Below are positions 18,928 to 34,826 of a stretch of DNA of 43,247 nt, in pieces; positions within the stretch are counted from its first letter, which is position 1, and each line of letters begins with the position of its first letter. The notes beneath the pieces are model-generated. The model saw only the letters and a program-made list of their open reading frames with translations, was not told where the DNA came from and did no database searches. The translations under genes were made by a program, and so were the position numbers. Origin of the DNA: Flavobacteriaceae bacterium (GTDB lineage: Bacteria > Bacteroidota > Bacteroidia > Flavobacteriales > Flavobacteriaceae); assembly GCA_002723075.1 (NCBI GenBank), contig PBNJ01000009.1, positions 37,558 to 80,804 of the forward strand, in the 5' to 3' direction.

Positions 18928-19998
18928 ATGAACACAAATAAAGAGGATGAAATCGACCTGATTGCTCTATTAAAAACCGTTTTTATCGCAAGGCGTTTTG
19001 TTGTTAAAACTACTATATTGTTTGCCGTTCTAGGGGTGATTTCGGCACTAATTTCCCCCATAAAATATACAGCGTCTACCACATTTGTACCTCAGCTGTC
19101 TGAAGGACCAACAAACTCATCTTTAGGCGGCTTAGCATCTCTAGCGGGCATTAACCTTTCTGCCATAATGGGCAGCCAGCCCCAAGAGATACCCCCATCG
19201 TTATACCCGCAAATTGCAGAAAGTGTTCCCTACCGATTAGCACTTTTAGAGGCTAAAGTGGGTTCAAACGATATTAGCTTTCGAAATTATATCCTTGATG
19301 AAAGTAGCGGTGTGGCAATATTGCCTTTACTAAAAAAATACACCATAGGGCTACCAGGATTGTTGTTAAATACTCAAGGCGAGGAAAACGGCACCCAAGA
19401 CAGCCTTCTTTTTCAGGTTAGTGAAGAAGACAGGGACCTTTTCGAGTTTTTAGAACAGGTCGTTTCAATTGAAGTGGACGATCTAGAAGGGCTGGTCTCC
19501 ATCAGTGTGGAGTTGGGGGACCGTGTGGTGGCCGCTCAACTGGCGCAAGCCGCCACCGATTTATTACAGAAAAAAATCATCGCGTTTAAAAGCCAAAGCG
19601 CGAGAAACAACTTAGACTTTATCGAGAGGCAGTACGAATCAAAACGCCAAGAGTTTGAAAATATTCAGGATTCGATCGCGATTTTTAAAGACCAAAACCT
19701 TAACATAACATCCTCACTTTACCAAAATCAACTTTCTCGTTTGGAGTCACAGTTTACAGTGACCTCCTCTGTTTTTCAGGAACTTGCGGGACAAGTTGAG
19801 CAAGCCAAAATCCAAGTCAACAAAGACACACCCATTTTTACAATTATTGAACCTGTAAGTGTCCCACTAAAGCGATCTAAACCTAGACGAACCATTGTGG
19901 TGATGATATGGACGTTCTTAGGCGGGGTGTTTTCAGTAGGGTGGATCCTTGTAAAGTCACCAGCACAACATGTTATAAATGAGCTTCTTGGGAGCTAG
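18928..19998 (+). CDS. Wzz-type polysaccharide chain-length determinant / co-polymerase
   Basis: A 356-residue inner-membrane protein with the Wzz layout: an acidic N-terminus with Asp-Leu-Ile-Ala-Leu-Leu, TM1 (about 26-48), a Pro-rich Ser-Pro-Ile-Lys-Tyr-Thr-Ala after it, a large periplasmic region with coiled-coil (about 210-300), and TM2 near the C-terminus preceded by Pro-Val-Ser-Val-Pro-Leu-Lys. No tyrosine autokinase domain is attached, so it is not a Wzc. It should set chain length and link polymerase to the SLBB exporter. Its TAG stop shares bases with the stop of the convergent transferase gene (CTAG at 19995-19998). Confidence 0.9.
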   Translation: MNTNKEDEIDLIALLKTVFIARRFVVKTTILFAVLGVISALISPIKYTASTTFVPQLSEGPTNSSLGGLASLAGINLSAIMGSQPQEIPPSLYPQIAESVPYRLALLEAKVGSNDISFRNYILDESSGVAILPLLKKYTIGLPGLLLNTQGEENGTQDSLLFQVSEEDRDLFEFLEQVVSIEVDDLEGLVSISVELGDRVVAAQLAQAATDLLQKKIIAFKSQSARNNLDFIERQYESKRQEFENIQDSIAIFKDQNLNITSSLYQNQLSRLESQFTVTSSVFQELAGQVEQAKIQVNKDTPIFTIIEPVSVPLKRSKPRRTIVVMIWTFLGGVFSVGWILVKSPAQHVINELLGS

Positions 19999-21065
19999 CG
20001 AGAGATTTCTTTTTGTACTCTTCGCCTAATAAAAAAGAGCACGACATACCAAACAAACAGGTATATTAAAAAGATGGTTGTTGTAACTTCATGGGCCAAA
20101 TTAAAGGAAAGTTGAGAAAACAACATCAGCGTCGCAGTTAAGCTTGCAACGATTATTAATGAAGCCATCACATGATTTTTGGTAAAATGTAAAACGAGGT
20201 GGTGAACGTGGTTGTTGTCCGGCTTAAAAGGGCTCTTTTTATGCCAAACTCGACTAAAAAATACACTGCCAGAATCGAGTATGGGAACAATAAAAATGCA
20301 AAGAGCAGCCAAAGAGACAAGGGACTTATGGGGAATAAAAATCGATAAAATGACAGACTCATTGGTCACAAAATACATGGTAAAGAGGTAAAACATAAAT
20401 CCTAAAAACAAAGAGCCAGTATCTCCCATGAAAACTTTCTTTTTGTGTGAAAGATTAAAACGCAAAAAAGCGAACAAACACCCAATTAGAATGACACAAA
20501 AAGACAAGAACAGATAGTCCCCGACAATATAAAAGATTGACCCATAGCACACGGACATCACAATGCCTAACATAGCTGCTAGACCATCAATGCCATCACA
20601 AAGATTAAAGGCATTGATCATAAACACTCCGATAAAAAAGGTGAGAAAATAATCGACTCCAATGGGGAGGTCATAAACATTTAAAAACCCATAAAGATTG
20701 CGAACAACAAGGTCGTCCCCAAAAGCAAAAAAGGAAATCGCGACTAACTGAAGGATAAGTTTAATAATCGGCCGAAGCTGATAAATGTCGTCGCGAATTC
20801 CGACATAAACGATAATTGCACCCGCACCCAAAACGAGAATAAGCCGCTGCACATCGACAAAAGGAACAAAAGCAAAAGCGACCACCAAGAGTGCAACATA
20901 AAAGGACAGACCAGTGAGCTTGGGAACAAAACGCCAATGCAGATCTCGATCACTTGGCTTTCGAAAAATTTTATACTTTCTAACGACTTCCGCCACACGA
21001 GGAATGGTTAACCACGTAAAGACAAAACCATAGATTAGCAAAACCAATAAAGAGCTGATGGCCAT
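19995..21065 (-). CDS. WecA/TagO-type undecaprenyl-phosphate sugar-1-phosphate transferase
   Basis: A 356-residue polytopic enzyme of the MraY/WecA family with about ten membrane helices. Diagnostic cytoplasmic motifs are Asn-Leu-Cys-Asp-Gly-Ile-Asp-Gly-Leu-Ala, Met-Gly-Asp-Thr-Gly-Ser-Leu-Phe-Leu-Gly and, near the C-terminus, Asn-Asn-His-Val-His-His. The last is the His-rich loop that marks the UDP-GlcNAc-using WecA/TagO branch and not MraY. It would load GlcNAc-1-P (or a related sugar) on undecaprenyl phosphate to start a lipid-linked glycan. Two upstream in-frame ATGs (21101, 21080) are rejected because a TATTTTTG box lies 4 bases before ATG 21065. Confidence 0.9.
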   Translation of the reverse strand: MAISSLLVLLIYGFVFTWLTIPRVAEVVRKYKIFRKPSDRDLHWRFVPKLTGLSFYVALLVVAFAFVPFVDVQRLILVLGAGAIIVYVGIRDDIYQLRPIIKLILQLVAISFFAFGDDLVVRNLYGFLNVYDLPIGVDYFLTFFIGVFMINAFNLCDGIDGLAAMLGIVMSVCYGSIFYIVGDYLFLSFCVILIGCLFAFLRFNLSHKKKVFMGDTGSLFLGFMFYLFTMYFVTNESVILSIFIPHKSLVSLAALCIFIVPILDSGSVFFSRVWHKKSPFKPDNNHVHHLVLHFTKNHVMASLIIVASLTATLMLFSQLSFNLAHEVTTTIFLIYLFVWYVVLFFIRRRVQKEISR

Positions 21066-21069
21066 AGGG

Positions 21070-21077
21070 CAAAAATA
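21070..21077 (-). promoter_or_regulatory. -7 promoter box for the WecA/TagO-like gene (leaderless?)
   Basis: TATTTTTG on the - strand, 4 bases before ATG 21065. TTTG at 21101-21104 on the same strand is a possible -33 element. It lies back to back with the kelch-gene promoter. Confidence 0.55.
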
Positions 21078-21079
21078 CA

Positions 21080-21087
21080 TATCTTTG
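21080..21087 (+). promoter_or_regulatory. -7 promoter box for the 15-gene polysaccharide operon
   Basis: TATCTTTG on the + strand, 30 bases before ATG 21118. It is the only clear box I see before the gene run that ends at 35674, and it is only 2 bases from the divergent promoter box for the transferase gene. Confidence 0.6.
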
Positions 21088-21117
21088 TAAAAACATATCA
21101 CAAATAGTCTTATTTTT

Positions 21118-22410
21118 ATGCGACTATTATTTTTTATTCTTTTTAGCGCTCAGATTTTCGCGCAATCTCAAGAAGCGATCAAAACTTGGTACGATCAAAT
21201 CAACCAAACAACCTACACCTTTTATGAGGATCAAGTTGTTAAAGAACGGTTTTTCAACAACAAAAAAGACACGATTTATTTCAACCCCATACCTGCAGAT
21301 TACCCAGATTACAGTTCGATTTGGTACAACGATGCGCTTCATTTGACCAGTAACCAGGGGGGCTTAATTTATCGGGTTGAAAAAGACACGACAATTCGTA
21401 TCGATCGCTCCTATCAACATCGGAAACAGAGCAAAGCCAGCCAGTTTGTTTATCGTGATACCCTATTTCGCTATGGCGGCTATGGGTTTTGGAGGGCGAA
21501 TAATTTCTTCACGTATTTCGACAAGACGACAAAAGAGTGGGGATACTACCCGATTGAGGGATTTCAATTTCCACCCGAAGCTTATGGAGATCCTTGTTTT
21601 TTATTGGGGGACACCTTTTACAGCTTTGGCGGAATGGAGGTTGACAAATTCACAGGCCTCGAGGGTCAAAAAAACAATGATATCTGGACGTTTGACTTTA
21701 TAACTCGAAGGTGGACGAACCTTGGCAAAACAGCGGTCAATTTGTCTCCATATAAAGCAGTTCAAAAAGATAGCTTGTTTTATTTGTTTGGTCAACCCCA
21801 AAACACGGATCACAACCTATTGGTAGATTTAAGGAATAATCAAGCACGATTTTATAAACAGTCATTAATCTCAGCCAACATCAATAAAAATGAACCAGCT
21901 TTTTTTCGTGGCGACTCACTTTACTATTACAAAAACAACACTCTTTACAGTGCGATTCTTTCTGAGAACATCTTCAACAGCCCACAACAAGTAGAACGCC
22001 TGTTCTTTGATCAAAGCGCGCTGTTTACAAACCTGACCTATATCGCCCTATTTGCCTTTGTGATGCTTGTAGCGACCTATCTATGGATCACGTATCAACA
22101 CATGAAAGCACCTCGCTTGGTACGCGGAGGAATCAGAAATAATTTTGACTTTTATCCGCTTCGGGAAGAAGAAGAGTTGATTTTAGGGCTTTTGCAATCC
22201 AAATTAACCGCAACAACTGAAGACATTCTTCGCGTGATCGGCCGAGAGGATTTGAGCAGTTCGCAAAACAACAAACGTAAAGCAGATGCAATTGAAGAGA
22301 TTAATAAACTGATGAAACAGCTCGTTGGTAAAACGATTATCAAAACCAAAAAAGACCCCAACGACAAGCGTCAGCTGATTTATTATTACAAACGAAACCT
22401 ACTGAGCTAA
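21118..22410 (+). CDS. Kelch-like periplasmic protein with one TM helix and a predicted cytoplasmic winged helix
   Basis: A 430-residue protein not matching a named family that I recognise. Visible parts are a signal peptide (residues 1-15, ending Ala-Gln), a beta-rich region with two kelch-like blocks (about 118-145 and 168-202, with Gly-Gly pairs and spaced Trp/Tyr), one membrane helix (about 306-326) and a basic segment. A C-terminal domain (about 350-427) has alternating helices and ends Lys-Lys-Asp-Pro-Asn-Asp-Lys-Arg-Gln-Leu, which resembles the wing of MarR-type winged helices. Topology predicts kelch outside and the winged helix in the cytoplasm. As first gene of the polysaccharide operon it could be a membrane-bound regulator. 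A structural role is also possible. Confidence 0.65.
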   Translation: MRLLFFILFSAQIFAQSQEAIKTWYDQINQTTYTFYEDQVVKERFFNNKKDTIYFNPIPADYPDYSSIWYNDALHLTSNQGGLIYRVEKDTTIRIDRSYQHRKQSKASQFVYRDTLFRYGGYGFWRANNFFTYFDKTTKEWGYYPIEGFQFPPEAYGDPCFLLGDTFYSFGGMEVDKFTGLEGQKNNDIWTFDFITRRWTNLGKTAVNLSPYKAVQKDSLFYLFGQPQNTDHNLLVDLRNNQARFYKQSLISANINKNEPAFFRGDSLYYYKNNTLYSAILSENIFNSPQQVERLFFDQSALFTNLTYIALFAFVMLVATYLWITYQHMKAPRLVRGGIRNNFDFYPLREEEELILGLLQSKLTATTEDILRVIGREDLSSSQNNKRKADAIEEINKLMKQLVGKTIIKTKKDPNDKRQLIYYYKRNLLS

Positions 22411-23106
22411 ATGACAACACAAGCGATTTTACAAAGCATTCCTTTTCCTAAACAGCTTTTGACGTTTTCCTTTTTCGTCGTGAGTGTACCTATTATTGCA
22501 CAAACGGAAGCCAAAGTCAATCTCGCAACACTCCCATTTTTGATACCAAACTTTGGCTTGGAAGTTCCCTTAGGTGAGAAACAATCTTTTCAGCTTGATG
22601 TACTTGGGTCGTTTTGGGACGAACAGCCACTTCTCGATGACACCCCTTTTCATGTGAATCAAGTGTTTTTGGAGTATCGATGGTATCAGCAAAGCGATAC
22701 CCAAAAATGGTTTATTGGCCCTCACATTGGCTTTGGAATGTTTACCCTACAAAAGCCCGATTTTGCTATTATTTACGACTATTGGGAAGAGAAATCAGGT
22801 GCGGAAAAACGTTTAGATGTCCCGGATGACGAATATCAGTCGGGTAGAGCGGCCTTTTATGGCCTTACGGTTGGCTACAAAAAACGACTCAAAAAGGGCT
22901 TTGGTCTGGAATTTTTTATCGGAGCAGGGCTAACACAGTCTTGGTACAAGGGCTATAAGGGATTACGCCGAGTAGATTTAGATTACCCAGATGAAACTGA
23001 TTATCGACCGTTTAATGGGTCAGGAGAGGTCGTGGCTTACCGTGGCGGACTGATGCTCACCTATAAAATCCCTACTTTTGAAACCAAAAATAACCTGGAT
23101 GAATAA
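22411..23106 (+). CDS. DUF3575-like outer-membrane beta-barrel protein
   Basis: A 231-residue protein with an extended N-terminal signal region (hydrophobic to about residue 31, ending Ile-Ile-Ala-Gln). It is followed by Lys-Val-Asn-Leu-Ala-Thr-Leu-Pro-Phe and Pro-Asn-Phe-Gly-Leu-Glu-Val, the opening pattern I associate with DUF3575, then alternating amphipathic strands with many aromatic residues. It is predicted to be a small outer-membrane barrel of unknown function. Its ATG directly follows the stop of the kelch gene and its stop overlaps the start of ugd by 8 bases, so it belongs to the same transcript. Confidence 0.65.
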
Positions 23107-24514
23107 AATCTGTTGTATTGGAGCGGGCTATGTAGGCGGACCCACCATGGCGGTCATTGCAAGGCAGTGTCCAAATATCACAGTGACCGTGGTTGATATT
23201 AGCGAAGAGCGTATTGCAGCCTGGAACGACCGTGATGTAGACAATCTCCCGATTTATGAGCCAGGGTTGGCTGAAGTTGTGGCCAAAGCAAGAAACAAAA
23301 ACCTCTTTTTTTCTACGGAAGTTGATAAGGCAATTCAAGAAGCAGACATCGTTTTTATTGCGGTCAATACGCCTACTAAAACCTATGGAAAAGGGAAGGG
23401 CATGGCTGCAGACCTGACCTATGTTGAGCAATGTGCCAGGCGTATTGCAGAGGTCGCAACGAGTGATAAAATCGTGGTTGAAAAAAGCACACTTCCTGTT
23501 CGCACAGCAGAAGCGATTCAAACCATATTGGAACAATCTCCCCATGGCGCACAGTTTGAGGTCTTATCCAATCCCGAGTTTTTGGCAGAAGGCACGGCGA
23601 TTGAAGATCTATTTAAATCAGACCGGGTGCTTATCGGGGGCCGCAGAACACCTAAAGGTGAACAAGCCGTTCAGGCGCTAGTTGATATTTATGCCAATTG
23701 GATTCCACGTGAAAAAATCGTGACTACTAACGTCTGGTCTTCTGAGCTGTCAAAGCTCGTCTCCAATGCCTTTTTGGCACAACGAATAAGCTCCATAAAC
23801 AGCATTTCAGCACTTTGTGAAGCCACAGGCGCCGATGTGGAAGAAGTCGCCGCCGCAGTTGGAAAGGACAGTCGGATTGGACCCAAATTTTTAAAAGCAT
23901 CCGTTGGATTTGGGGGGAGCTGCTTTCAAAAAGACATTTTAAATCTAGTTTATCTGTGTCAGCAATATGGTCTAGATGAAGTAGCCGACTATTGGAAGGG
24001 AGTTATTACCATAAATGATTACCAGAAAAATCGCTTTGCCAATCGGATTCAACAGGCCTTGTTCAATACGGTGAATGGCAAAAAAATTGCCTTTTGGGGC
24101 TGGGCCTTTAAAAAGGACACCAATGACACAAGAGAATCCGCAGCGATTTATGTGGCCGATCAATTACTTTCTGAGGGCGCAGAGATTGTTGTGTATGATC
24201 CCAAAGTGTCTTTAGCTCGGATGCAGATGGATTTGCAAACCCTATTGGAATACCGCGGAGAAACAGAAACAGACATTAACGGAAAGCTAGCTAAGCTTTA
24301 CAGTGTCGATTCGGCGGCGGCCGCATGTACGAAAGCCCATGCTTTGGCCGTTATTACAGAGTGGGATGTGTTTCAAACCCAAGACTTTGAAACCATTTAT
24401 ACCCAAATGGAAAAGCCGGCTTTTGTTTTTGACGGCAGAAAAATTTTAAATCACAACCAATTGCAATCGATTGGCTTCACGGCCTATGAGATTGGAAAAG
24501 CAACAGAAAGCTAA
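23099..24514 (+). CDS. ugd: UDP-glucose 6-dehydrogenase (eukaryote-like type)
   Basis: About 471 residues. It oxidises UDP-glucose to UDP-glucuronate with two NAD+. It starts [19 protein letters not shown], with the Rossmann Gly-x-Gly-x-x-Gly, and has Asn-Thr-Pro-Thr-Lys-Thr-Tyr-Gly, [10 protein letters not shown] and the catalytic Cys275 in Phe-Gly-Gly-Ser-Cys-Phe-Gln-Lys-Asp. These and the length are much closer to animal UGDH (catalytic Cys276 in human) than to short bacterial Ugd/TuaD enzymes. The ATG at 23099 lies within the end of the DUF3575 gene; an upstream in-frame ATG (23078) is less likely. It supplies GlcA for the polysaccharide. Confidence 0.93.
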
Positions 24515-24515
24515 T

Positions 24516-26357
24516 ATGTGTGGAATTGTAGGTTATGTCGGAAATCGCGCTGCATACCCCATCATTATTCAAGGGTTAAAACGCTTGGAATATCGCGGTT
24601 ATGACAGCGCAGGGATTGCCTTACTCAATAGCGAGTTACAGCTAACGAAAACCAAAGGTAAGGTTGCAGATTTGGAAGCCAAGGCGCAACAAAATAAACG
24701 ATCAGGGACACTTGGTGTTGGACATACGCGTTGGGCAACACATGGGGTTCCAAATGATGTGAATGCCCACCCGCACACCTCTAATTCCGGACGTTTGGTA
24801 TTGGTTCATAACGGCATCATTGAAAACTACGAATCCCTACGTGCCTATTTGACCAAAAAAGGGTTTTCGTTCTCGTCCGACACCGATACCGAGGTTTTGG
24901 TCAACTTGATCGAGCATATCCAAACCACGCAAGGCTTGAAGACGGGAAAAGCGGTACAAATCGCCTTAAACCAAGTGGTTGGCGCCTATGCCATTGCGGT
25001 TTTTGATAAGGAGCGACCCAAAGAAATCGTGGTTGCTAAACTCGGTAGCCCCCTTGCGATAGGCCTTGGAAAAGACGAATATTTTGTGGCTTCTGATGCC
25101 TCACCATTTATTGAATACACCAACCGTTCGATTTATTTGGAAGACAATGAAATGGCAGTTATCAACCAAGACAAAGGATTAAGAATGTACACAATTCCAG
25201 ACAACAGTCGGGTTGACCCTCAAATCCAAGAATTGCAACTGAGCTTAGAAAAAATTGAAAAAGGCGGCTATGACCATTTTATGCTCAAAGAGATTTACGA
25301 GCAACCCGACGCCATTATTGATACCTTTCGCGGAAGACTTCACAGGGATCAACAACAGATTTTGTTGTCTGGTTTGGAAGAACACAAAGAAGTGTTTCAA
25401 AACGCCAAACGAATTATTATCATTGCTTGTGGCACTTCTTGGCATGCAGGCCTAGTGGGTGAATATCTGTTTGAGGATGCGGCACGAATCCCTGTTGAAG
25501 TGGAATACGCTTCGGAGTTTCGTTACCGCAATCCCGTAATTTCCAAAGAGGATGTGGTCATTGCGATATCCCAATCCGGAGAAACGGCGGACACCTTAGC
25601 GGCGATTAAGCTTGCCAAAGAAGCACGTGCTTTTGTCTTTGGAATTTGTAACGTGGTGGGAAGCTCGATTGCACGTGCTGCCGACACTGGCGCATACACG
25701 CATGCAGGCCCAGAAATTGGAGTAGCATCAACCAAGGCCTTTACCACACAAATCACCTTGTTGATGTTGATTGGATTGCGTTTGGGGCAATTGCGAGGCA
25801 CTTTATCTAAGGATGATTTTAGTCGTGTTGCAGAGGAACTGGAAGCCCTGCCCAAAGCCGTACAAACCGTATTGAAAAGCGAAAAGGAGATTGAACAGAT
25901 TGCAAAAAGTTATAAGGATGCTGCTAACTTTTTGTATCTAGGACGCGGGTATAATTTCCCAGTGGCTTTAGAAGGGGCGTTGAAGCTTAAAGAAATCTCC
26001 TATATTCACGCAGAGGGCTATCCCGCAGCAGAAATGAAGCATGGCCCCATTGCGCTGATTGACAAAAACATGCCTGTTGTGGTGATTGCCACCAACAAAG
26101 GGCATTATGAAAAGGTGGTGAGCAATATTCAAGAAATCAAATCTAGAGACGGGAAAATTATTGCCGTTGTGACCAAGGGCGATAAGTCGGTCAAAGCGCT
26201 GGCTGATCACGTGATTGAAATTCCAGAAGTCACAGAGTCTTTAACACCCATTTTGGCATCTGTTCCCCTGCAGTTACTTGCCTATCATATTGCTGTGATG
26301 CGGGGTTGTAATGTGGATCAGCCCAGAAACCTCGCAAAATCGGTAACGGTGGAATAA
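24516..26357 (+). CDS. glmS: Glutamine-fructose-6-phosphate aminotransferase
   Basis: About 613 residues. It makes glucosamine-6-phosphate from fructose-6-phosphate and glutamine, the first step to UDP-GlcNAc. After the initiator Met the catalytic Cys2 opens the N-terminal glutaminase domain (MCGIVGYVGNRAAYPI), followed by Gly-His-Thr-Arg-Trp-Ala-Thr-His-Gly. Two SIS domains follow (Ala-Cys-Gly-Thr-Ser-Trp-His-Ala; Ser-Gln-Ser-Gly-Glu-Thr), and the C-terminus ends Ala-Lys-Ser-Val-Thr-Val-Glu. A longer reading frame upstream would bury Cys2, so ATG 24516 is certain. It follows ugd by one base, and its stop overlaps the next ATG (TAATG). I see no glmS ribozyme upstream; there is no space for one. 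Confidence 0.97.
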   Translation: MCGIVGYVGNRAAYPIIIQGLKRLEYRGYDSAGIALLNSELQLTKTKGKVADLEAKAQQNKRSGTLGVGHTRWATHGVPNDVNAHPHTSNSGRLVLVHNGIIENYESLRAYLTKKGFSFSSDTDTEVLVNLIEHIQTTQGLKTGKAVQIALNQVVGAYAIAVFDKERPKEIVVAKLGSPLAIGLGKDEYFVASDASPFIEYTNRSIYLEDNEMAVINQDKGLRMYTIPDNSRVDPQIQELQLSLEKIEKGGYDHFMLKEIYEQPDAIIDTFRGRLHRDQQQILLSGLEEHKEVFQNAKRIIIIACGTSWHAGLVGEYLFEDAARIPVEVEYASEFRYRNPVISKEDVVIAISQSGETADTLAAIKLAKEARAFVFGICNVVGSSIARAADTGAYTHAGPEIGVASTKAFTTQITLLMLIGLRLGQLRGTLSKDDFSRVAEELEALPKAVQTVLKSEKEIEQIAKSYKDAANFLYLGRGYNFPVALEGALKLKEISYIHAEGYPAAEMKHGPIALIDKNMPVVVIATNKGHYEKVVSNIQEIKSRDGKIIAVVTKGDKSVKALADHVIEIPEVTESLTPILASVPLQLLAYHIAVMRGCNVDQPRNLAKSVTVE

Positions 26358-26782
26358 TGAAGAAAATGGCAATCATCGTATCAGGCTATTTTAATCCTTT
26401 ACACAAAGGGCATTTGGAATATTTTAACAATGCCAAGGCGCTATGCGATGAGCTCTTTGTGATTGTCAACAATGATCATCAGAGGGAACTCAAAGGAAGT
26501 AAGCCCTTTCAAGATGAACAGGAGCGTTTACTGATTGTCAGCAATATCAAGGCAGTAGACAAAGTGATTTTGTCCATTGACAAAGATCGTACGGTTTGTG
26601 CGAGTATTAGCAAAATAACAGAACAGTATGGCGCCGACTATGACTTAGCTTTTGCCAATGGGGGCGATCAGAACAACGAGACCATTCCTGAAATACCTGT
26701 ATGTAAGGAGTTAGGGGTAGCGCTGATAGACGGCTTAGGAGATAAAATACAAAGTAGTAGTTGGTTGTTAAGGAACGATTAG
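26357..26782 (+). CDS. Cytidylyl/adenylyltransferase-family protein
   Basis: A 141-residue nucleotidyltransferase-fold protein. The HxGH motif is His17-Lys-Gly-His20 in a Gly-Tyr-Phe-Asn-Pro-Leu-His-Lys-Gly-His context. The second family motif, normally ISSTxxR-like, is only loosely visible as Ser-Ser-Ser-Trp-Leu-Leu-Arg at the end. Related enzymes activate glycerol-3-phosphate, heptose phosphate or phosphocholine. Its location between glmS and wecB suggests activation of a precursor or decoration of the polysaccharide, but the substrate is unresolved. Confidence 0.7.
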   Translation: MKKMAIIVSGYFNPLHKGHLEYFNNAKALCDELFVIVNNDHQRELKGSKPFQDEQERLLIVSNIKAVDKVILSIDKDRTVCASISKITEQYGADYDLAFANGGDQNNETIPEIPVCKELGVALIDGLGDKIQSSSWLLRND

Positions 26783-26788
26783 ATTAAA

Positions 26789-27904
26789 ATGAAGAAAATA
26801 TTACTGGTTTTTGGAACTAGACCTGAAGCCATTAAAATGGCACCTTTGGTAAAAGAACTCCAAAAACACTGTAACGATTTTGAAACGAAAGTTTGTTTAA
26901 CGGCTCAGCACCGAGAAATGCTTGATCAGGTTCTTGATTTTTTCGAGATTAATTCAGATTACGATTTAGACCTAATGAAGCCAGGTCAAAACCTTTATTC
27001 GCTTACTGCGACCATCATAGTTTCTTTAAAACCCATTTTAGAAGAATTTGCGCCAGATTACGTTTTTGTTCACGGAGACACCACGACGACCATGGCGGCA
27101 TCAATTGCTTCTTTTTATGCCGGGGCAAAAGTTTGTCATGTAGAAGCAGGGCTACGCACACACAACAAGCTTTCACCCTTTCCCGAAGAAATCAATAGGC
27201 AAGTAACAGGGCGCATTTGTGATTTACATTTTGCGCCCACGGAAGCCTCAAAAAAGAACTTATTGGCCGAGAATATTTCTGAAAACAGCATTCTTGTTAC
27301 TGGCAACACTGTGATTGATGCGCTTTTTGAAAGTATAACACGTGTTAAAAATTTAAGCACAGAAAACATAGAGAACATAAAAAAATCCCTTTTGCCAGAC
27401 CAGGAAGTGATTCTTGTGACTGGACACAGAAGAGAGAATCACGGTGAAGGTTTTGAACGCATTTGCCAAGCGTTAAAAGAGATTTCGAAATCAAAACCCG
27501 AGGTCAAAATCATTTACCCAGTTCATTTGAACCCCATGGTTCAAGAGCCTGTAAATAGACATTTAAAAGATTCAAAAAATATACTATTGATATCCCCCGT
27601 TTCTTACCCTGAGTTTATTTGGTTAATGAATCGCTCAAAAATTATCATTACAGATAGCGGCGGGGTTCAAGAAGAAGCACCTAGCCTTGGAAAGCCTGTT
27701 TTGGTGATGCGAGACAATACGGAACGCCCAGAGGCCGTAGAAGCAGGAACGGTTATCCTTGTTGGCACAAATAAAGAAAGGATTGTAAATGAAGCATTAG
27801 ACCTGCTAGAAAACAAAGAACGCTTTCAAGTGATGAGTGAGCTTCACAACCCATATGGCGATGGTAAAGCATGTAGTCGAATTATAGATTTTTTAAAAAC
27901 TTGA
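26789..27904 (+). CDS. wecB: UDP-N-acetylglucosamine 2-epimerase (non-hydrolysing)
   Basis: A 371-residue GT-B-fold epimerase that interconverts UDP-GlcNAc and UDP-ManNAc. Conserved elements are Phe-Gly-Thr-Arg-Pro-Glu-Ala-Ile-Lys-Met-Ala-Pro (9-20), Val-His-Gly-Asp-Thr-Thr-Thr-Thr (about 94-101), Glu-Ala-Gly-Leu-Arg-Thr and Gly-His-Arg-Arg-Glu-Asn-His-Gly, plus Asp-Ser-Gly-Gly-Val-Gln-Glu-Glu-Ala in the C-terminal half. It works with the following WecC to give UDP-ManNAcA. Six bases separate it from the upstream gene and five from wecC. Confidence 0.97.
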   Translation: MKKILLVFGTRPEAIKMAPLVKELQKHCNDFETKVCLTAQHREMLDQVLDFFEINSDYDLDLMKPGQNLYSLTATIIVSLKPILEEFAPDYVFVHGDTTTTMAASIASFYAGAKVCHVEAGLRTHNKLSPFPEEINRQVTGRICDLHFAPTEASKKNLLAENISENSILVTGNTVIDALFESITRVKNLSTENIENIKKSLLPDQEVILVTGHRRENHGEGFERICQALKEISKSKPEVKIIYPVHLNPMVQEPVNRHLKDSKNILLISPVSYPEFIWLMNRSKIIITDSGGVQEEAPSLGKPVLVMRDNTERPEAVEAGTVILVGTNKERIVNEALDLLENKERFQVMSELHNPYGDGKACSRIIDFLKT

Positions 27905-27909
27905 ATAGT

Positions 27910-29106
27910 ATGATTGATGTAGTTACCATAGGACTTGGATATATCGGGCTGCCAACATCTGTACTTATGGCATCAAAGGGCAAAAAAGTATTAGGTGTAG
28001 ATATTGACCAAGATGTAGTAAATACAATCAACAAAGGAAATATCCATATCGTAGAACCAGAACTAGATGTTGCTGTTAAAAAAGCAGTAGATCAAGGAAA
28101 TCTTATTGCTTCTTCTAAGGCTGAGGAGGCCCAAGCATACTTAGTTGTAGTTCCTACACCCTTTAAGGGAGATCATGAGCCAGATATTTCCTATGTTGAA
28201 ATGGCAACTCAAGGGATTATTCCATTGTTAAAAGAGGGAGATTTATACATTTTGGAATCAACCTCACCTGTTGGAACTACTGAGAAAATGCAAGAGATGA
28301 TTTTCGCTCAAAGACCCGAGTTGAAAAATAAAATTTTTATGGCCTATTGTCCTGAGCGCGTACTCCCTGGAAACGTAATGCATGAGTTGGTGCATAACGA
28401 CAGGGTAATAGGAGGCGTTGATGAAAAGTCTACTCGAAAAGCGATTTCATTTTATTCAAGTTTTGTTAATGGAGCCCTACATGCCACCAATGCCAAAACA
28501 GCAGAAATGTGTAAGCTTGTAGAAAACGCTTCTAGAGATGTGCAAATCGCTTTTGCCAACGAACTTTCATTGATTTGTGATAAAGCAGGAATTGATGTTT
28601 GGGAGCTCATAAAGTTGGCTAACAAACACCCCAGAGTTAACATTCTGCAACCTGGGTGTGGGGTTGGAGGTCATTGTATAGCCGTAGATCCTTATTTCAT
28701 AAAAGCACATTTTCCTCTTGAATCGAAACTAATAGGAACAGCTCGCGAAATAAACAACTACAAGGCTTTTTGGTGTATTGAGAAAATTCAGAATGAAATT
28801 TTAAAATTTGAGTTGCAACATAAAAGAAAACCTGTTGTTGCTTTATGTGGGCTTGCTTTTAAACCCAACATTGATGATCTTCGGGAGTCACCAGCAAGTT
28901 TTATTGTTGAAAAGATCATTAACAGCAATGACCCATCATATTTTAACATTGTAGAACCCAACATTTCTTTTCATAATAAGTTTGAGATAGTTAAGCTTGA
29001 ACACGCGGTCTCAAACTCAGATATAATAGCTCTACTTGTTAGACATGACGAGTTTGTAAAACAAGACTACAAGGACTTGATTGTTTTAAACTTTTGTAAT
29101 GCTTAA
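27910..29106 (+). CDS. wecC: UDP-N-acetyl-D-mannosamine dehydrogenase
   Basis: About 398 residues of the UDP-sugar dehydrogenase family. The Rossmann motif is Gly-Leu-Gly-Tyr-Ile-Gly-Leu-Pro; the catalytic Cys is in Gly-Gly-His-Cys-Ile-Ala-Val-Asp-Pro-Tyr-Phe, the sequence typical of ManNAc and related dehydrogenases, unlike the Gly-Gly-Ser-Cys of the ugd product in the same operon. Glu-Ser-Thr-Ser-Pro-Val-Gly-Thr-Thr and Lys-Pro-Asn-Ile-Asp-Asp-Leu-Arg-Glu-Ser-Pro are also present. Preferred start is ATG 27910; an in-frame TTG at 27901 overlaps the wecB stop. Its last 8 bases overlap the start of the flippase gene. Confidence 0.93.
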   Translation: MIDVVTIGLGYIGLPTSVLMASKGKKVLGVDIDQDVVNTINKGNIHIVEPELDVAVKKAVDQGNLIASSKAEEAQAYLVVVPTPFKGDHEPDISYVEMATQGIIPLLKEGDLYILESTSPVGTTEKMQEMIFAQRPELKNKIFMAYCPERVLPGNVMHELVHNDRVIGGVDEKSTRKAISFYSSFVNGALHATNAKTAEMCKLVENASRDVQIAFANELSLICDKAGIDVWELIKLANKHPRVNILQPGCGVGGHCIAVDPYFIKAHFPLESKLIGTAREINNYKAFWCIEKIQNEILKFELQHKRKPVVALCGLAFKPNIDDLRESPASFIVEKIINSNDPSYFNIVEPNISFHNKFEIVKLEHAVSNSDIIALLVRHDEFVKQDYKDLIVLNFCNA

Positions 29107-30277
29107 GCTTAAAGACTTAAACAAACTTAAACTTTTAGTTTTTGGCTATTTAAACTGGACCACAATTTTTCTTGTTGTTCCATCGGCTCTTTTGTTTTTT
29201 GCAAACATTTATTTATTTGATTATTTAGATGAAAAAATTTACTTTCTGTTTGGTCAGATTATGATTTTTATCTCTATTCAAAACTCAATTGGCGCGCTTG
29301 CGTTTGAACAGTTGATTATTAGGAATTCTGGAGGAGAAAAACGAATTACCCTATATTTTAACATTATCAGTTATTCCTTTGGGGCAATAGCCTTAACATC
29401 TTTTATTCTTTCAAGTGTTATAAATATAAACGTAAGTTTTGTTGTTCTTTTTTTGGTTTTTTTTACTACAGGACTTAACATGACAATTTCAAAAGTATTT
29501 AAGCTCCTAAAAAAAACAGAATTAACAACGGCAATCACAAATTTTTGGAAGATTTTTCCTGTCTTTTTTTTGTTGTATAAAGATTTTGAAGCTGTATTAT
29601 GGGGGCTTGTATTCATTAATGCATTAGCAACCATATATTCTTTTTGTGTTCTTTTTTACATGAAGGACTCTGTTCTTTTCAAAAGGAAAGTCCCATTTAA
29701 TACATTATTTAACCAGCAAACAGGTTTTTTGTTGAGTTTAACCACTATGACTGTAATTTCTTTTTTCGATAAAATATTAGTTTATAAAAACTTTAGCGTT
29801 GAGGTTGCTAATGAATATTTTTTCTTGTTTACCCTATTCACTCCGATATCGATATTCCACAATTTAAATAACATTAAATACGTTGCATTATTTAGGGAAC
29901 GAATCGACATCAAACTGATGAGAAAGGAAACAGCAAGACAAACATCCCTTTTTGTCATTTTGATAATCCCTATTTTGACATCTATTCCATTTCTCTTAGA
30001 CCTAGACCTGAACATATTGTTCATAGTTATTTCCTTTTCTTTAATCTCATTAATTCGGTTGAAGTATTCTGTATTTTCAAGCATACTAAGTTTAAACCTT
30101 GGTAAAAAAGAGTTGAATACGATTAGAATATATTCCATTATGGTATTGGCGAGCTATTTTGTTTTGTACAATATTAAAATAGGCTTTATAACGTTGCTTT
30201 TATGTTTTACATCCTTTTGGGTTATTAGGCTTTTATTATATAAAAAAATGTCAAAAAATCTTTTATGGAAGCCTTAA
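29099..30277 (+). CDS. Wzx-like polysaccharide flippase (putative)
   Basis: A 392-residue, strongly hydrophobic protein with about ten to twelve membrane helices separated by short basic loops. No specific motif can be named; the size, topology and position inside a glycosyltransferase/polymerase block are those of a Wzx-type lipid-linked oligosaccharide flippase. The base composition is clearly more AT-rich than in ugd or glmS upstream: for example 29161-29220 has 17 G/C of 60, against 34 of 60 at 25681-25740. It overlaps both neighbours (8 and 13 bases). Confidence 0.6.
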   Translation: MLKLKDLNKLKLLVFGYLNWTTIFLVVPSALLFFANIYLFDYLDEKIYFLFGQIMIFISIQNSIGALAFEQLIIRNSGGEKRITLYFNIISYSFGAIALTSFILSSVININVSFVVLFLVFFTTGLNMTISKVFKLLKKTELTTAITNFWKIFPVFFLLYKDFEAVLWGLVFINALATIYSFCVLFYMKDSVLFKRKVPFNTLFNQQTGFLLSLTTMTVISFFDKILVYKNFSVEVANEYFFLFTLFTPISIFHNLNNIKYVALFRERIDIKLMRKETARQTSLFVILIIPILTSIPFLLDLDLNILFIVISFSLISLIRLKYSVFSSILSLNLGKKELNTIRIYSIMVLASYFVLYNIKIGFITLLLCFTSFWVIRLLLYKKMSKNLLWKP

Positions 30278-30756
30278 AGCATCAACCTGGCACTTTAGAC
30301 CGACTGCTCTTGAAAAAAAATTCAAATCAAATAATTACTTTCGTTAGAAGACGATCTCAATTTTATGCAATTAAAAGAATCTATAACCTGAAAAGCATTA
30401 TAAATTTAACTTATCAATTCGTTGTTGGATTTTACATGGGTATTAAAAAAAACTGTATTTTGAATTGTGGAGGGGCGATAGAAATTGGAAAAAACGTTCT
30501 TATAGGCCCCAATGTTGTCATATACAGTCAAAACCACAACTTTTCTGACAAGTCTAAGCCCATTAAAGATCAGGGATATAGTTACAGTAAAGTTGTCATT
30601 GAGGACAATGTCTGGATTGATTCTGGCACAACTATATTGCCCGGGTCTTATATTGAAAAAGGGTCTGTGATTGGAGCAAGTTCTGTTTTCGGCGGGAAGG
30701 CCGGTAAATATGGAATATATTATGGCGATAAAGCAAAGCGAAGAAATCATTATTAA
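30265..30756 (+). CDS. Left-handed beta-helix (hexapeptide) acyltransferase
   Basis: A 163-residue protein. After a short N-terminal helical part come hexapeptide repeats (Ile-Glu-Ile-Gly-Lys-Asn-Val-Leu-Ile-Gly-Pro-Asn, Val-Val-Ile-Glu-Asp-Asn-Val-Trp-Ile-Asp, Gly-Ser-Val-Ile-Gly-Ala-Ser-Ser-Val). The Tyr-Ser-Gln-Asn-His-Asn segment in between carries the His typical of the catalytic loop in maltose/galactoside-type acetyltransferases. It would acetylate a sugar of the repeat unit. Its start lies in the end of the flippase gene, and its stop is directly followed by the ATG of the polymerase-like gene. Confidence 0.85.
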   Translation: MEALKHQPGTLDRLLLKKNSNQIITFVRRRSQFYAIKRIYNLKSIINLTYQFVVGFYMGIKKNCILNCGGAIEIGKNVLIGPNVVIYSQNHNFSDKSKPIKDQGYSYSKVVIEDNVWIDSGTTILPGSYIEKGSVIGASSVFGGKAGKYGIYYGDKAKRRNHY

Positions 30757-31962
30757 ATGGAAGCAAAGACTTATTTTTTATTGTCAAGCTTATTTCTTCT
30801 GCTTGGGATATTGTCAATTAATAAGAACAATTACATAAAGTGGTTTCTTTTTTTGGTAATCATTTTACCGTCTGCAGATTTTTTAAAAGATTACTTTTTT
30901 CGTTATCAAAATCACGCTTCACATTTCTTTTTTTATCCTTTCATTGTAGTTTTTTTTAAACACATTTCAAAAAAAGCTCTTTTTTTACCTTTAGTAGGTT
31001 TTACAATAATTGTTGTGTTTTCATTCTTGGTTTCCGCCATGAATAATAGAATAAGCACTTACTTTATTTTTCTAGACATCAAACCTCTTTTGCTCTTTCT
31101 AGTATTGGTAGCGTTTGTAATTCATAAAGGGCATAAAATTTCAGGATTATTTGAAACAAGGTTTTTTAAAAGGCTACTTGGGCTGAACTTTTTTATTGAT
31201 GCTTTTTTGTTTGCTGGGGTGCTGTTTTTTGATTTAAACACTCTATTTTCTGAAGACAAATTCTTTTCAATTAACTCTTACAGATACTCGGATATTGGCG
31301 TTGTGATTTTGTTTATATACGTGCTTGACAGATTTTCAAAAAAAAGCTTTATTATCGATAAAAGTCTTCTTTTTGCGCTATTTCCAATATTGTTTTCTTT
31401 CAATAGGTCTATGATATTCATATTAGTCCTAATTTTTTTATTCAAAGCCCTCAAAAGGCTTGTTATAAAACCCCTTAACCCCTCGATTAACCAGGTGATT
31501 TTTTTGTCATGTATTGTTGTTGCTATAACTACTGCATTTATTTCTCTACAAAACTCAAGGTTAACAGTTTTTTTAAATGTTGATTTACTTTCAGAATTTT
31601 TCCAAAATAGATTTTCCCCTTTTTATGAGACATTAAAAACCAGTTCAAATGCTGTTTCATCCTTATTGGGACATGGCTTGGGTTTTGCCTACGAAATTCC
31701 TTGGTTTCAATATAGAGACAACATCAATAACAAAAATATTTATTTAGACAATCTGATATTAACATTGTGGGGAAAATACGGGCTGATTTCTTTTGTACTA
31801 CTGGCGTTAATTTTATTTTTTATGTTAAGAGAAATTAACAATAAGAAACTTAGAAATCATATGCTTATATCCCTCCTTTTTATATCCCTTACAAATGCTT
31901 GGCTATATCAGGTTACACTCCCTTTATACTTCATATCCCCATATTTAACACAAAATAGATGA
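30757..31962 (+). CDS. Wzy-like O-antigen/capsule polymerase (putative)
   Basis: A 401-residue polytopic protein with about ten to twelve helices. In the C-terminal third a hydrophilic loop carries Leu-Leu-Gly-His-Gly-Leu-Gly-Phe (around 303-310), followed by Tyr-Leu-Asp-Asn-Leu and Gly-Lys-Tyr-Gly-Leu-Ile-Ser-Phe, the usual layout of the Wzy/O-antigen-ligase loop. Its coding sequence is among the most AT-rich of the window. Polymerase and ligase cannot be separated by sequence alone, but the operon context favours Wzy. Overlap with the next GT gene is 4 bases. Confidence 0.65.
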   Translation: MEAKTYFLLSSLFLLLGILSINKNNYIKWFLFLVIILPSADFLKDYFFRYQNHASHFFFYPFIVVFFKHISKKALFLPLVGFTIIVVFSFLVSAMNNRISTYFIFLDIKPLLLFLVLVAFVIHKGHKISGLFETRFFKRLLGLNFFIDAFLFAGVLFFDLNTLFSEDKFFSINSYRYSDIGVVILFIYVLDRFSKKSFIIDKSLLFALFPILFSFNRSMIFILVLIFLFKALKRLVIKPLNPSINQVIFLSCIVVAITTAFISLQNSRLTVFLNVDLLSEFFQNRFSPFYETLKTSSNAVSSLLGHGLGFAYEIPWFQYRDNINNKNIYLDNLILTLWGKYGLISFVLLALILFFMLREINNKKLRNHMLISLLFISLTNAWLYQVTLPLYFISPYLTQNR

Positions 31963-33167
31963 CTAAGGTATTACATCTTCTATACACAAGTCTACCTGAA
32001 AAATCAGGGTCTAGTATTAGAAGCCATGCACTTATTAAAGCCCAGCAAGAAAATAAGACTGACCCCTATGTATTGGTTGCCCCGTTTATTGAAGGGGTTT
32101 CCAAAGACTCAGAAGTTATATCGGAAGGAGTAACATATAATCTCACCAAAAGCTCAAAGTTTCATAAAAGCGAAAATATTTCGAGCTTTAAAGAGCTAAT
32201 CATAAAAGGGTTTTCTTTATATCGTTTTCTTTCAAAAGCTTTTTCTACAATAAAGAAAAATAAAATAGAAGCTATACATAGTCACAGCATGTTTTACTGC
32301 GCAATTACGGGGGCTATATGCTCTTTGGTTTTTCGAATTCCTCACCTTTATGAAGTACGATCTTTTTGGGAGCTCAGATCAAAGACAAAGGCACCATTAA
32401 GATATCGTTTATATAGATTTTTAGAAAACATTTCAATTCTTCTGGCAGATGAAATTGTTGTCATTTCAAATTCGATGAAGCAAGACATCCAAAGCAGAGG
32501 TAGGCGGTTTAGGAACAAGCCTATAACAATTGTATATAACGGACTTGATGAAAAAGAAATTAGAAAAAACCAAGAGCAGTCTGAAGTAAAAAAAATTAAC
32601 AAAAACACCCCCATTGTTTTAGGATATGTTGGAAACATTAGCCCCATTGAGGGGCTTGCAGAATTGATTTATTATATAAATAAACAGCCCCACCATAAAT
32701 TAGAATTGCACCTTTACGGATCGGGGAATGATGAAGACCGCTTGAAGCAAATAGTCCAAAAACACAATTATTCTAATATTGTTTTTCATGGTAAATTTGA
32801 GAGGAGTGAATTATCAGAAATATACAGTAATATTGATGTTGTTGTTATACCAAGAACACCTATTGAAATATGTGAAAAAGTAACACCCTTAAAACCCCTA
32901 GAAGCAATTTCTTTTTCAAAACCGGTCATTTGTAGTGATGTAGGGGGGCTATTAGAGCTCTTCGAAAATGATAAAAGCCTCCAATATTTTTATAATAAAA
33001 ACGACATAAGTTCAATCTCAAGAATATTTGATGAACTCCTAAACAAATCACAAGAGGACCTAGAAAAAAACATTGCCAAATCCATCGATTTTATTGTTAA
33101 TAATCGCAGTTGGCAGAAAAACACGAAACAATATCATAACTTGTACAAAAAATTAATTAATCATTGA
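31959..33167 (+). CDS. Glycosyltransferase family 4-type protein
   Basis: A 402-residue GT-B glycosyltransferase. The N-terminal half opens Met-Thr-Lys-Val-Leu-His-Leu-Leu-Tyr and has Ser-Gly-Ser-Ser-Ile-Arg-Ser. The C-terminal domain begins near Leu-Gly-Tyr-Val-Gly-Asn-Ile (about 220). The retaining-GT E-x7-E region is visible in Glu-Ile-Cys-Glu-Lys-Val-Thr-Pro-Leu-Lys-Pro-Leu-Glu, followed by Pro-Val-Ile-Cys-Ser-Asp-Val-Gly-Gly. Donor and linkage cannot be deduced. Confidence 0.88.
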   Translation: MTKVLHLLYTSLPEKSGSSIRSHALIKAQQENKTDPYVLVAPFIEGVSKDSEVISEGVTYNLTKSSKFHKSENISSFKELIIKGFSLYRFLSKAFSTIKKNKIEAIHSHSMFYCAITGAICSLVFRIPHLYEVRSFWELRSKTKAPLRYRLYRFLENISILLADEIVVISNSMKQDIQSRGRRFRNKPITIVYNGLDEKEIRKNQEQSEVKKINKNTPIVLGYVGNISPIEGLAELIYYINKQPHHKLELHLYGSGNDEDRLKQIVQKHNYSNIVFHGKFERSELSEIYSNIDVVVIPRTPIEICEKVTPLKPLEAISFSKPVICSDVGGLLELFENDKSLQYFYNKNDISSISRIFDELLNKSQEDLEKNIAKSIDFIVNNRSWQKNTKQYHNLYKKLINH

Positions 33168-33631
33168 AAACAATACTATTTGTATATGGTTTTGGAGGAC
33201 ACAGAGAACAGTCAAAGAGGTTGCTGTCTTACAACACGAACAATGATAAAATCATTGAAATCACAGAATTTGGCGTAGATCAAATTAACAAACAAAATAA
33301 ATGTTACAAAACGCTACCTTTTAAAACAAAGAAAAGAATTGATCCAATAAATATAACATTAGCGACACTTTATCTCACACCATTAGCCCTTTTCATTTTG
33401 ATTAAACATCGCCCTTCTAAGGTAATCACTACAGGGCCCATAGTTGGAGTTATACCAATTTTTCTTTCCAAGTTATTAGGAATAGAAACCATCTTTATAG
33501 AAACTTGGAGCCGTTTCTATAGTTGTTCGTCAACAGGAAAAATTCTAAGAAAAGCTGTAAGTAAGGTCTTAATTCAAAATGAGGAACTAAAGAGAATATA
33601 TCCAAACTCAATTTATTGTGGTCGTTTATGA
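33164..33631 (+). CDS. Alg14/PssD-like glycosyltransferase membrane subunit
   Basis: A 155-residue protein resembling the N-terminal half of a GT28-type enzyme (Alg14 in yeast, PssD/CpsF-type in bacteria). Seen are Tyr-Gly-Phe-Gly-Gly-His near residue 10, a hydrophobic helix (Thr-Leu-Ala-Thr-Leu-Tyr-Leu-Thr-Pro-Leu, about 65-80) that would anchor it, and Ile-Thr-Thr-Gly-Pro with Phe-Ile-Glu-Thr-Trp-Ser-Arg. The start is TTG overlapping the GT4 stop (TTGA). The partner subunit is the next gene (ATGA overlap). Confidence 0.8.
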   Translation: MKTILFVYGFGGHREQSKRLLSYNTNNDKIIEITEFGVDQINKQNKCYKTLPFKTKKRIDPINITLATLYLTPLALFILIKHRPSKVITTGPIVGVIPIFLSKLLGIETIFIETWSRFYSCSSTGKILRKAVSKVLIQNEELKRIYPNSIYCGRL

Positions 33632-34068
33632 AAAAATTATTTTTTACCGTTGGGACAACAGACTTTCCAGCCTTAACCAGGAAGGCAAACGAACTACATA
33701 AATCAAAAAAATTTAAGGTGGTTGCTCAAAGCCCAACAAGACTGAAAGACACATCATTAGAACAATTCAACTTTAAAGAGAACGTAATTGACTATTTTTT
33801 ATCTTCAGATTTAGTAATAACTCATGCTGGTGCAGGCTCGTGCTATAAACTAATTGAACTAGGCGTGCCGATTATTGTAGTTCCCAATTTAAATCGCAGA
33901 GATAAACATCAAAAAGAGATTGCATTATATTTTGAGAAAAATAATTATTGTAGTGTTTGCTGGGATTTAAATAAATTAGAAAACATTATTGAAAAACAAG
34001 ATTCTGTTAGATTTACCCCATATAGAAAAACCCCCTTTTTTTTAGCAAAGCTTATATTTTCACAATGA
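33628..34068 (+). CDS. Alg13/PssE-like glycosyltransferase catalytic subunit
   Basis: About 146 residues equal to the C-terminal, UDP-sugar-binding half of GT28 enzymes. It begins MKKLFFTVGTTDFPAL, like Alg13/PssE, and carries His-Ala-Gly-Ala-Gly-Ser (about 65-70) and a Pro-Asn-Leu-Asn-Arg-Arg-Asp-Lys-His-Gln segment near residue 90-100 for nucleotide-sugar binding. With the preceding subunit it should form a functional heterodimeric transferase. ATG 33628 (ATGA with the upstream stop) is preferred over an upstream TTG. Confidence 0.85.
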   Translation: MKKLFFTVGTTDFPALTRKANELHKSKKFKVVAQSPTRLKDTSLEQFNFKENVIDYFLSSDLVITHAGAGSCYKLIELGVPIIVVPNLNRRDKHQKEIALYFEKNNYCSVCWDLNKLENIIEKQDSVRFTPYRKTPFFLAKLIFSQ

Positions 34069-34826
34069 AAATCATAATTATCACCCAAAACGAACCTTTT
34101 TACCTTAGTCAGAACTTAAAGTATCTGTTTGGGGTTTTACCCAAGGATGTTAAGGTAGTGGGTTGCGTGGTTAACAGCGTTTCTCCCTTTGGAGAAAAAG
34201 AAAGCTTTTTCCGTAAATCCATAAAAACACTTAATATTTTTGGGTCTGTTTTTTTTATGTATTACTTCATGAAGTTTGTTTTCTCCAAGCTTTTTAAACC
34301 ACCCTTAAAAAAACTTTTAAAAGACAATCGAATTCCTGAAATTCACCTCGAAGGCAACATCAACTCTCAAACCAATTTAGCAATCATCCGCTCTTATAGC
34401 CCCGACTTGTTAGTTTCTATTCTTGGTAATCAAATTTTTAAAAAACCCCTTATTGACCTTGCCCCTCAAGGCTGTATCAACCTACATACGGCTTTATTAC
34501 CAAAATACAGGGGGCTGATGCCGACATTCTGGGTGCTTAAAAATAATGAAACCCACACAGGGGTGTCTGTGTTTTTTGTGGACGAAGGCATTGACAGCGG
34601 CCCTATCATCGTACAACAGAAAGTTGAAATTGGAAACCGCACACAAGCCGGTCTCATAAAACACACCAAAAAGATAGGCATGGAGTTGATTGCAGAGGCA
34701 ATCACTACAATTAAAAAAGGCAATTTGGAACTAATCCCCAACCCCAACAGCCAAATGTCTTACTATTCGTTTCCAACAAGAAAAGATGTGCAAGAATTTA
34801 AAAGAGCCGGAAAAAAGTTTTTTTGA
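34065..34826 (+). CDS. Sugar N-formyltransferase-like protein (Fmt fold)
   Basis: A 253-residue protein with a formyltransferase domain related to Fmt and PurN. The catalytic triad is visible as Asn139-x-His141 in Ile-Asn-Leu-His-Thr-Ala-Leu-Leu-Pro-Lys-Tyr-Arg-Gly and Asp177 in Glu-Gly-Ile-Asp-Ser-Gly-Pro. The Asn-Asp spacing (38) equals that of E. coli Fmt as I recall it (108, 110, 146). Sugar formyltransferases move the formyl group of N10-formyl-tetrahydrofolate to an amino sugar. The C-terminal OB fold of Fmt is missing, so it is not the tRNA enzyme. It overlaps its neighbours by 4 bases upstream and 1 base downstream. Confidence 0.83.
   Translation: MKIIIITQNEPFYLSQNLKYLFGVLPKDVKVVGCVVNSVSPFGEKESFFRKSIKTLNIFGSVFFMYYFMKFVFSKLFKPPLKKLLKDNRIPEIHLEGNINSQTNLAIIRSYSPDLLVSILGNQIFKKPLIDLAPQGCINLHTALLPKYRGLMPTFWVLKNNETHTGVSVFFVDEGIDSGPIIVQQKVEIGNRTQAGLIKHTKKIGMELIAEAITTIKKGNLELIPNPNSQMSYYSFPTRKDVQEFKRAGKKFF

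Follow-up and report, generated by a model that had tools for sequence, protein, structure and literature searches.

To our knowledge, the regulation of surface polysaccharide synthesis, as distinct from polysaccharide use, is poorly known in Bacteroidota. Transmembrane transcription regulators (TTRs) are an established class that is enriched in this phylum, and the census that described this relied on Pfam DNA-binding models (PMC10269533). Among described proteins, SusR resides in the membrane and joins a sensor in the periplasm to a DNA-binding domain at its C-terminus (PMC3878776). Here we describe a protein, encoded in a 43,247-nucleotide stretch of the genome of a marine Flavobacteriaceae bacterium (hereafter the window), that is probably a transmembrane one-component transcription regulator, with putative DNA binding, and belongs to an unnamed Bacteroidota-wide family. 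The initial annotation knew of no named family with its layout; indeed, the combination is named nowhere in Pfam or NCBIfam, and no description of membrane regulators that join a kelch part to a winged helix was found in the literature.

The protein encoded at 21118-22410 consists, in order, of a signal peptide, a kelch-type propeller, one transmembrane (TM) helix and a C-terminal winged-helix (wHTH) domain:
21118..22410, + strand: the whole kelch gene, with an ATG start and an intact reading frame of 430 aa.
21118..21165, + strand: signal peptide MRLLFFILFSAQIFAQ (aa 1-16), assigned from sequence, with the cleavage site placed by eye.
21175..22017, + strand: periplasmic kelch-type β-propeller (aa about 20-300), assigned from Pfam, PDB profile, Foldseek and invariant residues.
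22033..22089, + strand: single TM helix (aa 306-324), hydropathy 2.14.
22108..22407, + strand: cytoplasmic winged-helix domain (aa 331-430), assigned from the AF2 model and similarity to MarR and OmpR.
22258..22326, + strand: presumed recognition helix (aa 381-403), with conserved K/R386, K/R388 and N396.
22363..22371, + strand: wing signature D416-K-R418, its D and R invariant in 65/65 sequences.

A hydrophobic N-terminus is common among family members. In the AF2 model the TM region forms a helix from residue 299 to 330, and the C-terminal end of the chain is ...KTKKDPNDKRQLIYYYKRNLLS. Counting charges, K and R are more numerous after the TM helix than before it in 59 of 67 proteins, with seven ties and one opposite case, and the median pI of the family proteins is 9.1 for the C-domain and 6.1 for the N-domain. 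Judged by these sequence properties, the topology of the family is N-out/C-in; the bias of K and R toward the C-terminal side and the basic C-domain fit a cytoplasmic, nucleic-acid-binding domain. A single chain thus holds the sensor, TM helix and DNA-binding domain that define a TTR, the last recognised by its fold only.

The exported kelch part and the one TM helix proposed in the initial annotation are borne out by kelch matches in Pfam and the PDB, by the signal peptide and by hydropathy. Pfam kelch models match residues 108-242 (PF24681, E=2.9e-11; PF24981, 7.6e-9; both under curated cut-offs), and a Pfam kelch model is also matched by 25 of 36 diverse homologues. Compared with the PDB, the family profile finds the kelch domain of LZTR1 at 1.3e-17, along with numerous further kelch chains, and GGxG at aa 120-123 is invariant across the family. 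The AF2 propeller, built from a shallow alignment, is of low confidence (pLDDT often <50); despite this, the model matches kelch and propeller structures in 3Di (Foldseek, best E 2e-5). The GG...W repeat of kelch proteins is present with profile significance, the low pLDDT fixing no blade number.

In the full-length AF2 model the C-terminal domain has the order β-β-β-α1-β-α2-α3-β-β, with a two-stranded wing and a pLDDT of about 85. Folded alone, the domain gave a weaker model (pLDDT 69.5) with no significant Foldseek match (best E 0.19); the non-significant matches were to the OmpR-type ArlR, SaeR, ToxR and CadC and the MarR-type ZitR and MepR. The structure prediction called for by the initial annotation returned a winged helix, whose presumed recognition helix and wing are basic rather than acidic. 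Within the domain D416 and R418 rank first in conservation, followed by Y422, N396, I392 and the basic residues 386 and 388.

The resemblance of the C-terminus to a MarR wing, from which the winged helix was first suspected, is real: AdcR is the best single-sequence match of the kelch protein (phmmer, E=8.5e-4), the family profile matches the MarR protein Lin2960 at 1.2e-4, and the two outer residues of the wing signature do not vary. Matches in the PDB to MarR are marginal, and Pfam MarR is matched weakly by 5 of 36 members. A specifically MarR domain is not what the comparisons describe. With a 66-sequence alignment, a calibrated hhalign comparison gave 73% for OmpR and 57% for MarR, versus 0.1-0.3% for 12 non-wHTH control families; with the smaller A3 alignment the same comparison gave 8% or less for OmpR and 31% for MarR, an ordering that shifts between the two alignments and so makes no choice between these classes. 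Moreover, the dimerisation helices of MarR are absent, as the chain ends just past the wing and the TM helix and short strands precede the domain. Membership of MarR was rejected, with the AdcR model scoring 27 bits versus a cut-off of 175 and OmpR equally similar. Trans_reg_C had no match at Pfam E 1 in the kelch protein, nor does it appear in the list of families matched by the C-domains. The most fitting description is a separate kind of winged helix, similar to MarR and OmpR and a member of neither.

Homologues are present in 16 of the 199 family genomes searched (including L015 and L016, which lack the layout), in 37 of 396 order genomes and in 8 of 13 incomplete genus genomes; seven close relatives with a homologue are in named assemblies. 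The strongest test of the family searched 395 Bacteroidota genomes with a profile of only the C-terminal domain. Once one OmpR protein and three spurious matches were set aside, it had recovered 19 further proteins, every one of which has an extracytoplasmic part of ~270-440 aa, a TM helix and a wHTH domain, and a separate N-terminal profile matches 19/19 of them (E 2e-51 to 9e-9). The kelch and wHTH halves were never found separately in this sample. Conservation of the layout over genus and phylum rules out chance, and gene switches anchored in the membrane probably form an unrecognised family that extends across the phylum Bacteroidota.

The sensor of SusR carries Reg_prop and Y_Y_Y; Pfam matched neither of these in the kelch protein, nor HisKA or AraC. 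This result, and the recovery of only kelch-type proteins by the C-terminal profile across the phylum sample, make it very improbable that we are dealing with a degenerate regulator of the SusR/HTCS type that has retained only a propeller and a DNA-binding domain, a reading favored by the identical topology of SusR (PMC3878776) and by the propeller of the HTCS sensor BT4663 among the Foldseek matches of the kelch-part model.

The kelch gene had been described as promoter-proximal in a 15-gene polysaccharide operon, and this holds: 15 consecutive, almost gapless genes run uninterrupted on one strand from 21118 to 35674, the kelch gene first. The locus around it contains:
19995..21065, − strand: divergent WecA-like GT4 (Glycos_transf_4; Pfam PF00953, E 2.9e-32), a candidate co-regulated gene.
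21070..21077, − strand: TATTTTTG, a back-to-back −7 box for the divergent GT4 (ATG at 21065), largely conserved in the genus.
21080..21087, + strand: TATCTTTG, a −7 box of the Bacteroidota type (TAnnTTTG) assigned to the kelch gene and its operon, kept in 7/7 genus members.
21104..21113, + strand: ATAGTCTTAT, a conserved block ahead of the kelch ATG, nearly kept in seven genus members.
22411..23106, + strand: the next gene, a DUF3575 protein and probable outer-membrane barrel (Pfam, 56 bits).
23099..35674, + strand: the remaining polysaccharide operon genes, with a conserved head and a strain-variable tail.

Encoded in the operon are two UDP-sugar dehydrogenases, GlmS, a cytidylyltransferase, WecB (2-epimerase), an acetyltransferase, glycosyltransferases, a PssD/PssE pair, a formyltransferase and a deacetylase. 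The split glycosyltransferase pair PssD/PssE (window 33164-34068) scores above the NCBIfam cut-offs for both members, and the deacetylase (34823-35674) and a glycosyltransferase (31959-33167) are nearest to the XrtA/PEP-CTERM-type exopolysaccharide models TIGR03006 and TIGR04063, both under cut-off. Upstream of the kelch gene lie Wza- and Wzz-like genes and the divergent WecA-like GT4; the large Wza-like export protein (window 16535-18916, 793 aa) is matched by export-protein models in four stretches. The order Wza-Wzz-<GT4-KELCH>-DUF3575-UGD-GlmS-cytidylyltransferase does not vary within the genus wherever a contig shows the region, and the kelch gene heads a polysaccharide operon in every genus member with flanks seen. 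In L027 and L038, too, a DUF3575 gene adjoins the kelch gene. In genus g254 (L164-L167) a conserved probable outer-membrane barrel of ~195 aa is encoded immediately after the kelch gene, which recalls the DUF3575 protein of the window.

The two −7 boxes lie back to back between the divergent genes, and both the GT4 and the kelch directions could be under one regulator. By count, TAnnTTTG is not above chance within the window, and it is informative only through its conserved position; a sigma-70 promoter scan of the region is uninformative in this phylum. Nothing convincing as a palindromic operator was found in 20990-21180, nor was a conserved one found. As a genome-wide element TAGTCTTAT found no support; the pattern searched for across the genome had a 5-base spacer, and the window has one of 4. 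More speculatively, ATAGTCTTAT might be an operator or leader element.

The initial annotation had asked whether homologues always head polysaccharide operons; beyond the genus they do not. In the neighbor survey the GT4 link is found in a minority of lineages, all in one clade. Direct adjacency of GT4 and kelch genes was seen in seven lineages, and outside the genus in G067, G004 (between two paralogues), G055, G167, G529 and G616, the last two belonging to other families; in G123 a GT4 is near one of two kelch paralogues. Of 77 adjacent genes 6 were GT4, whereas none of the 234 genes at a distance of at least four places was (Fisher p=2e-4). On the tree, which has many long branches, every GT4-linked protein belongs to a single group of 19 rows, at scattered positions; an ancient link with repeated loss or regain would give such a pattern (neither is proven). 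Other homologues adjoin unrelated genes (phenylacetate, nitroreductase, PCMT, ECH, lipase and others), and the survey found no downstream partner gene common to all homologues. As a rule for homologues the lead position in polysaccharide operons fails, but the GT4 link is real in one clade. In L034 (G004:C12, 8009-11850) a WecA-like GT4 is flanked by two kelch-TM-wHTH paralogues beside Wza/Wzz, and L178 has a tandem kelch-TM-wHTH pair near a cytidylyltransferase and sugar genes.

Many wHTH domains have protein binding as their role. The varied contexts of the homologues, and the fact that the most consistent neighbor, GT4, is an inner-membrane enzyme, would suit an envelope sensor whose winged helix binds protein (or RNA) and controls the polysaccharide machinery (GT4, exporter) post-translationally rather than at transcription. 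We regard this as unlikely: conservation is strongest in the recognition helix and wing, the C-domain is basic, and the family persists where the genome has no adjacent GT4.

The operon head (kelch, DUF3575, UGD, GlmS, cytidylyltransferase) is conserved and the tail is strain-variable (window 26789-35674; L020-L024). In three loci (L021, L022 and L023) the kelch proteins are 91-93% identical and the tails, as far as the loci reach, have zero genes in common; L023 and L024 have a common tail, with 4/4 genes at 75-88%, and kelch proteins that are 70% identical. This decoupling weakens the proposal of the initial annotation that the sensor reads the glycan, since the kelch protein does not co-vary with the glycan-specific tail. 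It also weighs against a glycan-specific sensor tuned to the precise capsule or O-antigen that the downstream genes produce, a reading we consider improbable even with the kelch gene heading the operon and with sugar enzymes among kelch propellers (NANM is weakly matched by 5 of 36 members). A strain-specific glycan is thus probably not what the sensor would read. The lack of tracking favors a conserved signal and narrows the candidate cues: a shared one is more likely, such as a lipid-linked precursor, export machinery or flux, the DUF3575 protein or the general envelope state. The common tail of L023 and L024, despite diverged heads, suggests exchange of glycan cassettes.

Our preferred reading remains that of a transcription regulator. 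The signal peptide would export the kelch propeller to the periplasm, the TM helix would anchor the protein in the inner membrane, and the cytoplasmic winged helix, with its basic recognition helix and D-x-R wing, would bind DNA from the membrane. In this genus the protein, at a divergent promoter, would most likely control its own polysaccharide operon and the WecA-like initiating transferase, and the signal would be a shared envelope or export cue rather than a strain-specific glycan. Independent methods each found the kelch part, the TM helix and the wHTH domain, and the divergent promoter is kept in seven species. Against this reading stand the moderate confidence of the isolated C-domain, the many homologues away from polysaccharide genes, the scatter of the GT4 label in its clade and the failure to find a conserved palindromic operator. 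Architecture, topology bias, conservation, fold class and neighborhood are established; DNA binding, operator, ligand and sign of regulation are putative, and a regulatory function of the protein is likely but unproven. A broader reading is possible and more tentative, namely a phylum-wide family of kelch-propeller TTRs with its own winged-helix class, of which one clade would control GT4 initiation and polysaccharide assembly from the membrane through a conserved envelope or export signal and not through glycan structure.

As the product of the first gene of a capsule-type operon, the kelch protein offers a defined candidate regulator for testing and a diagnostic layout (kelch, one TM helix, C-terminal DxR wing). 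With its DNA-binding domain under every curated cut-off, the family is an example of transmembrane regulators expected to be missed by Pfam-based counts (PMC10269533).

Compared with MarR proteins (AdcR, Lin2960, ZitR), the kelch protein likewise has a winged helix with a D-x-R wing, but it is TM-anchored, is without the dimerisation helices and falls under all MarR cut-offs. With the OmpR/PhoB type (Trans_reg_C) it shares N-terminal strands before α1, the hhalign score of 73% and the Foldseek similarity to ArlR, SaeR and ToxR, whereas it is without a receiver and differs in its wing (D-x-R). ToxR and CadC are, like it, one-component proteins with a single TM helix and a winged helix, and they regulate from the membrane, as it would; their wHTH domain is N-terminal and cytoplasmic and their sensor C-terminal and periplasmic, the opposite order. 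HTCS proteins (BT4663) also fuse a periplasmic propeller across the membrane to DNA binding, but the kelch protein is much smaller and has no kinase or receiver in Pfam. The nearest functional analogue is SusR, which by its described topology likewise combines a periplasmic sensor, a TM segment and a C-terminal cytoplasmic DNA-binding domain in a Bacteroidota-specific, polysaccharide-linked protein. SusR governs polysaccharide uptake and use, whereas the protein described here has a kelch propeller and a recognisable winged helix.
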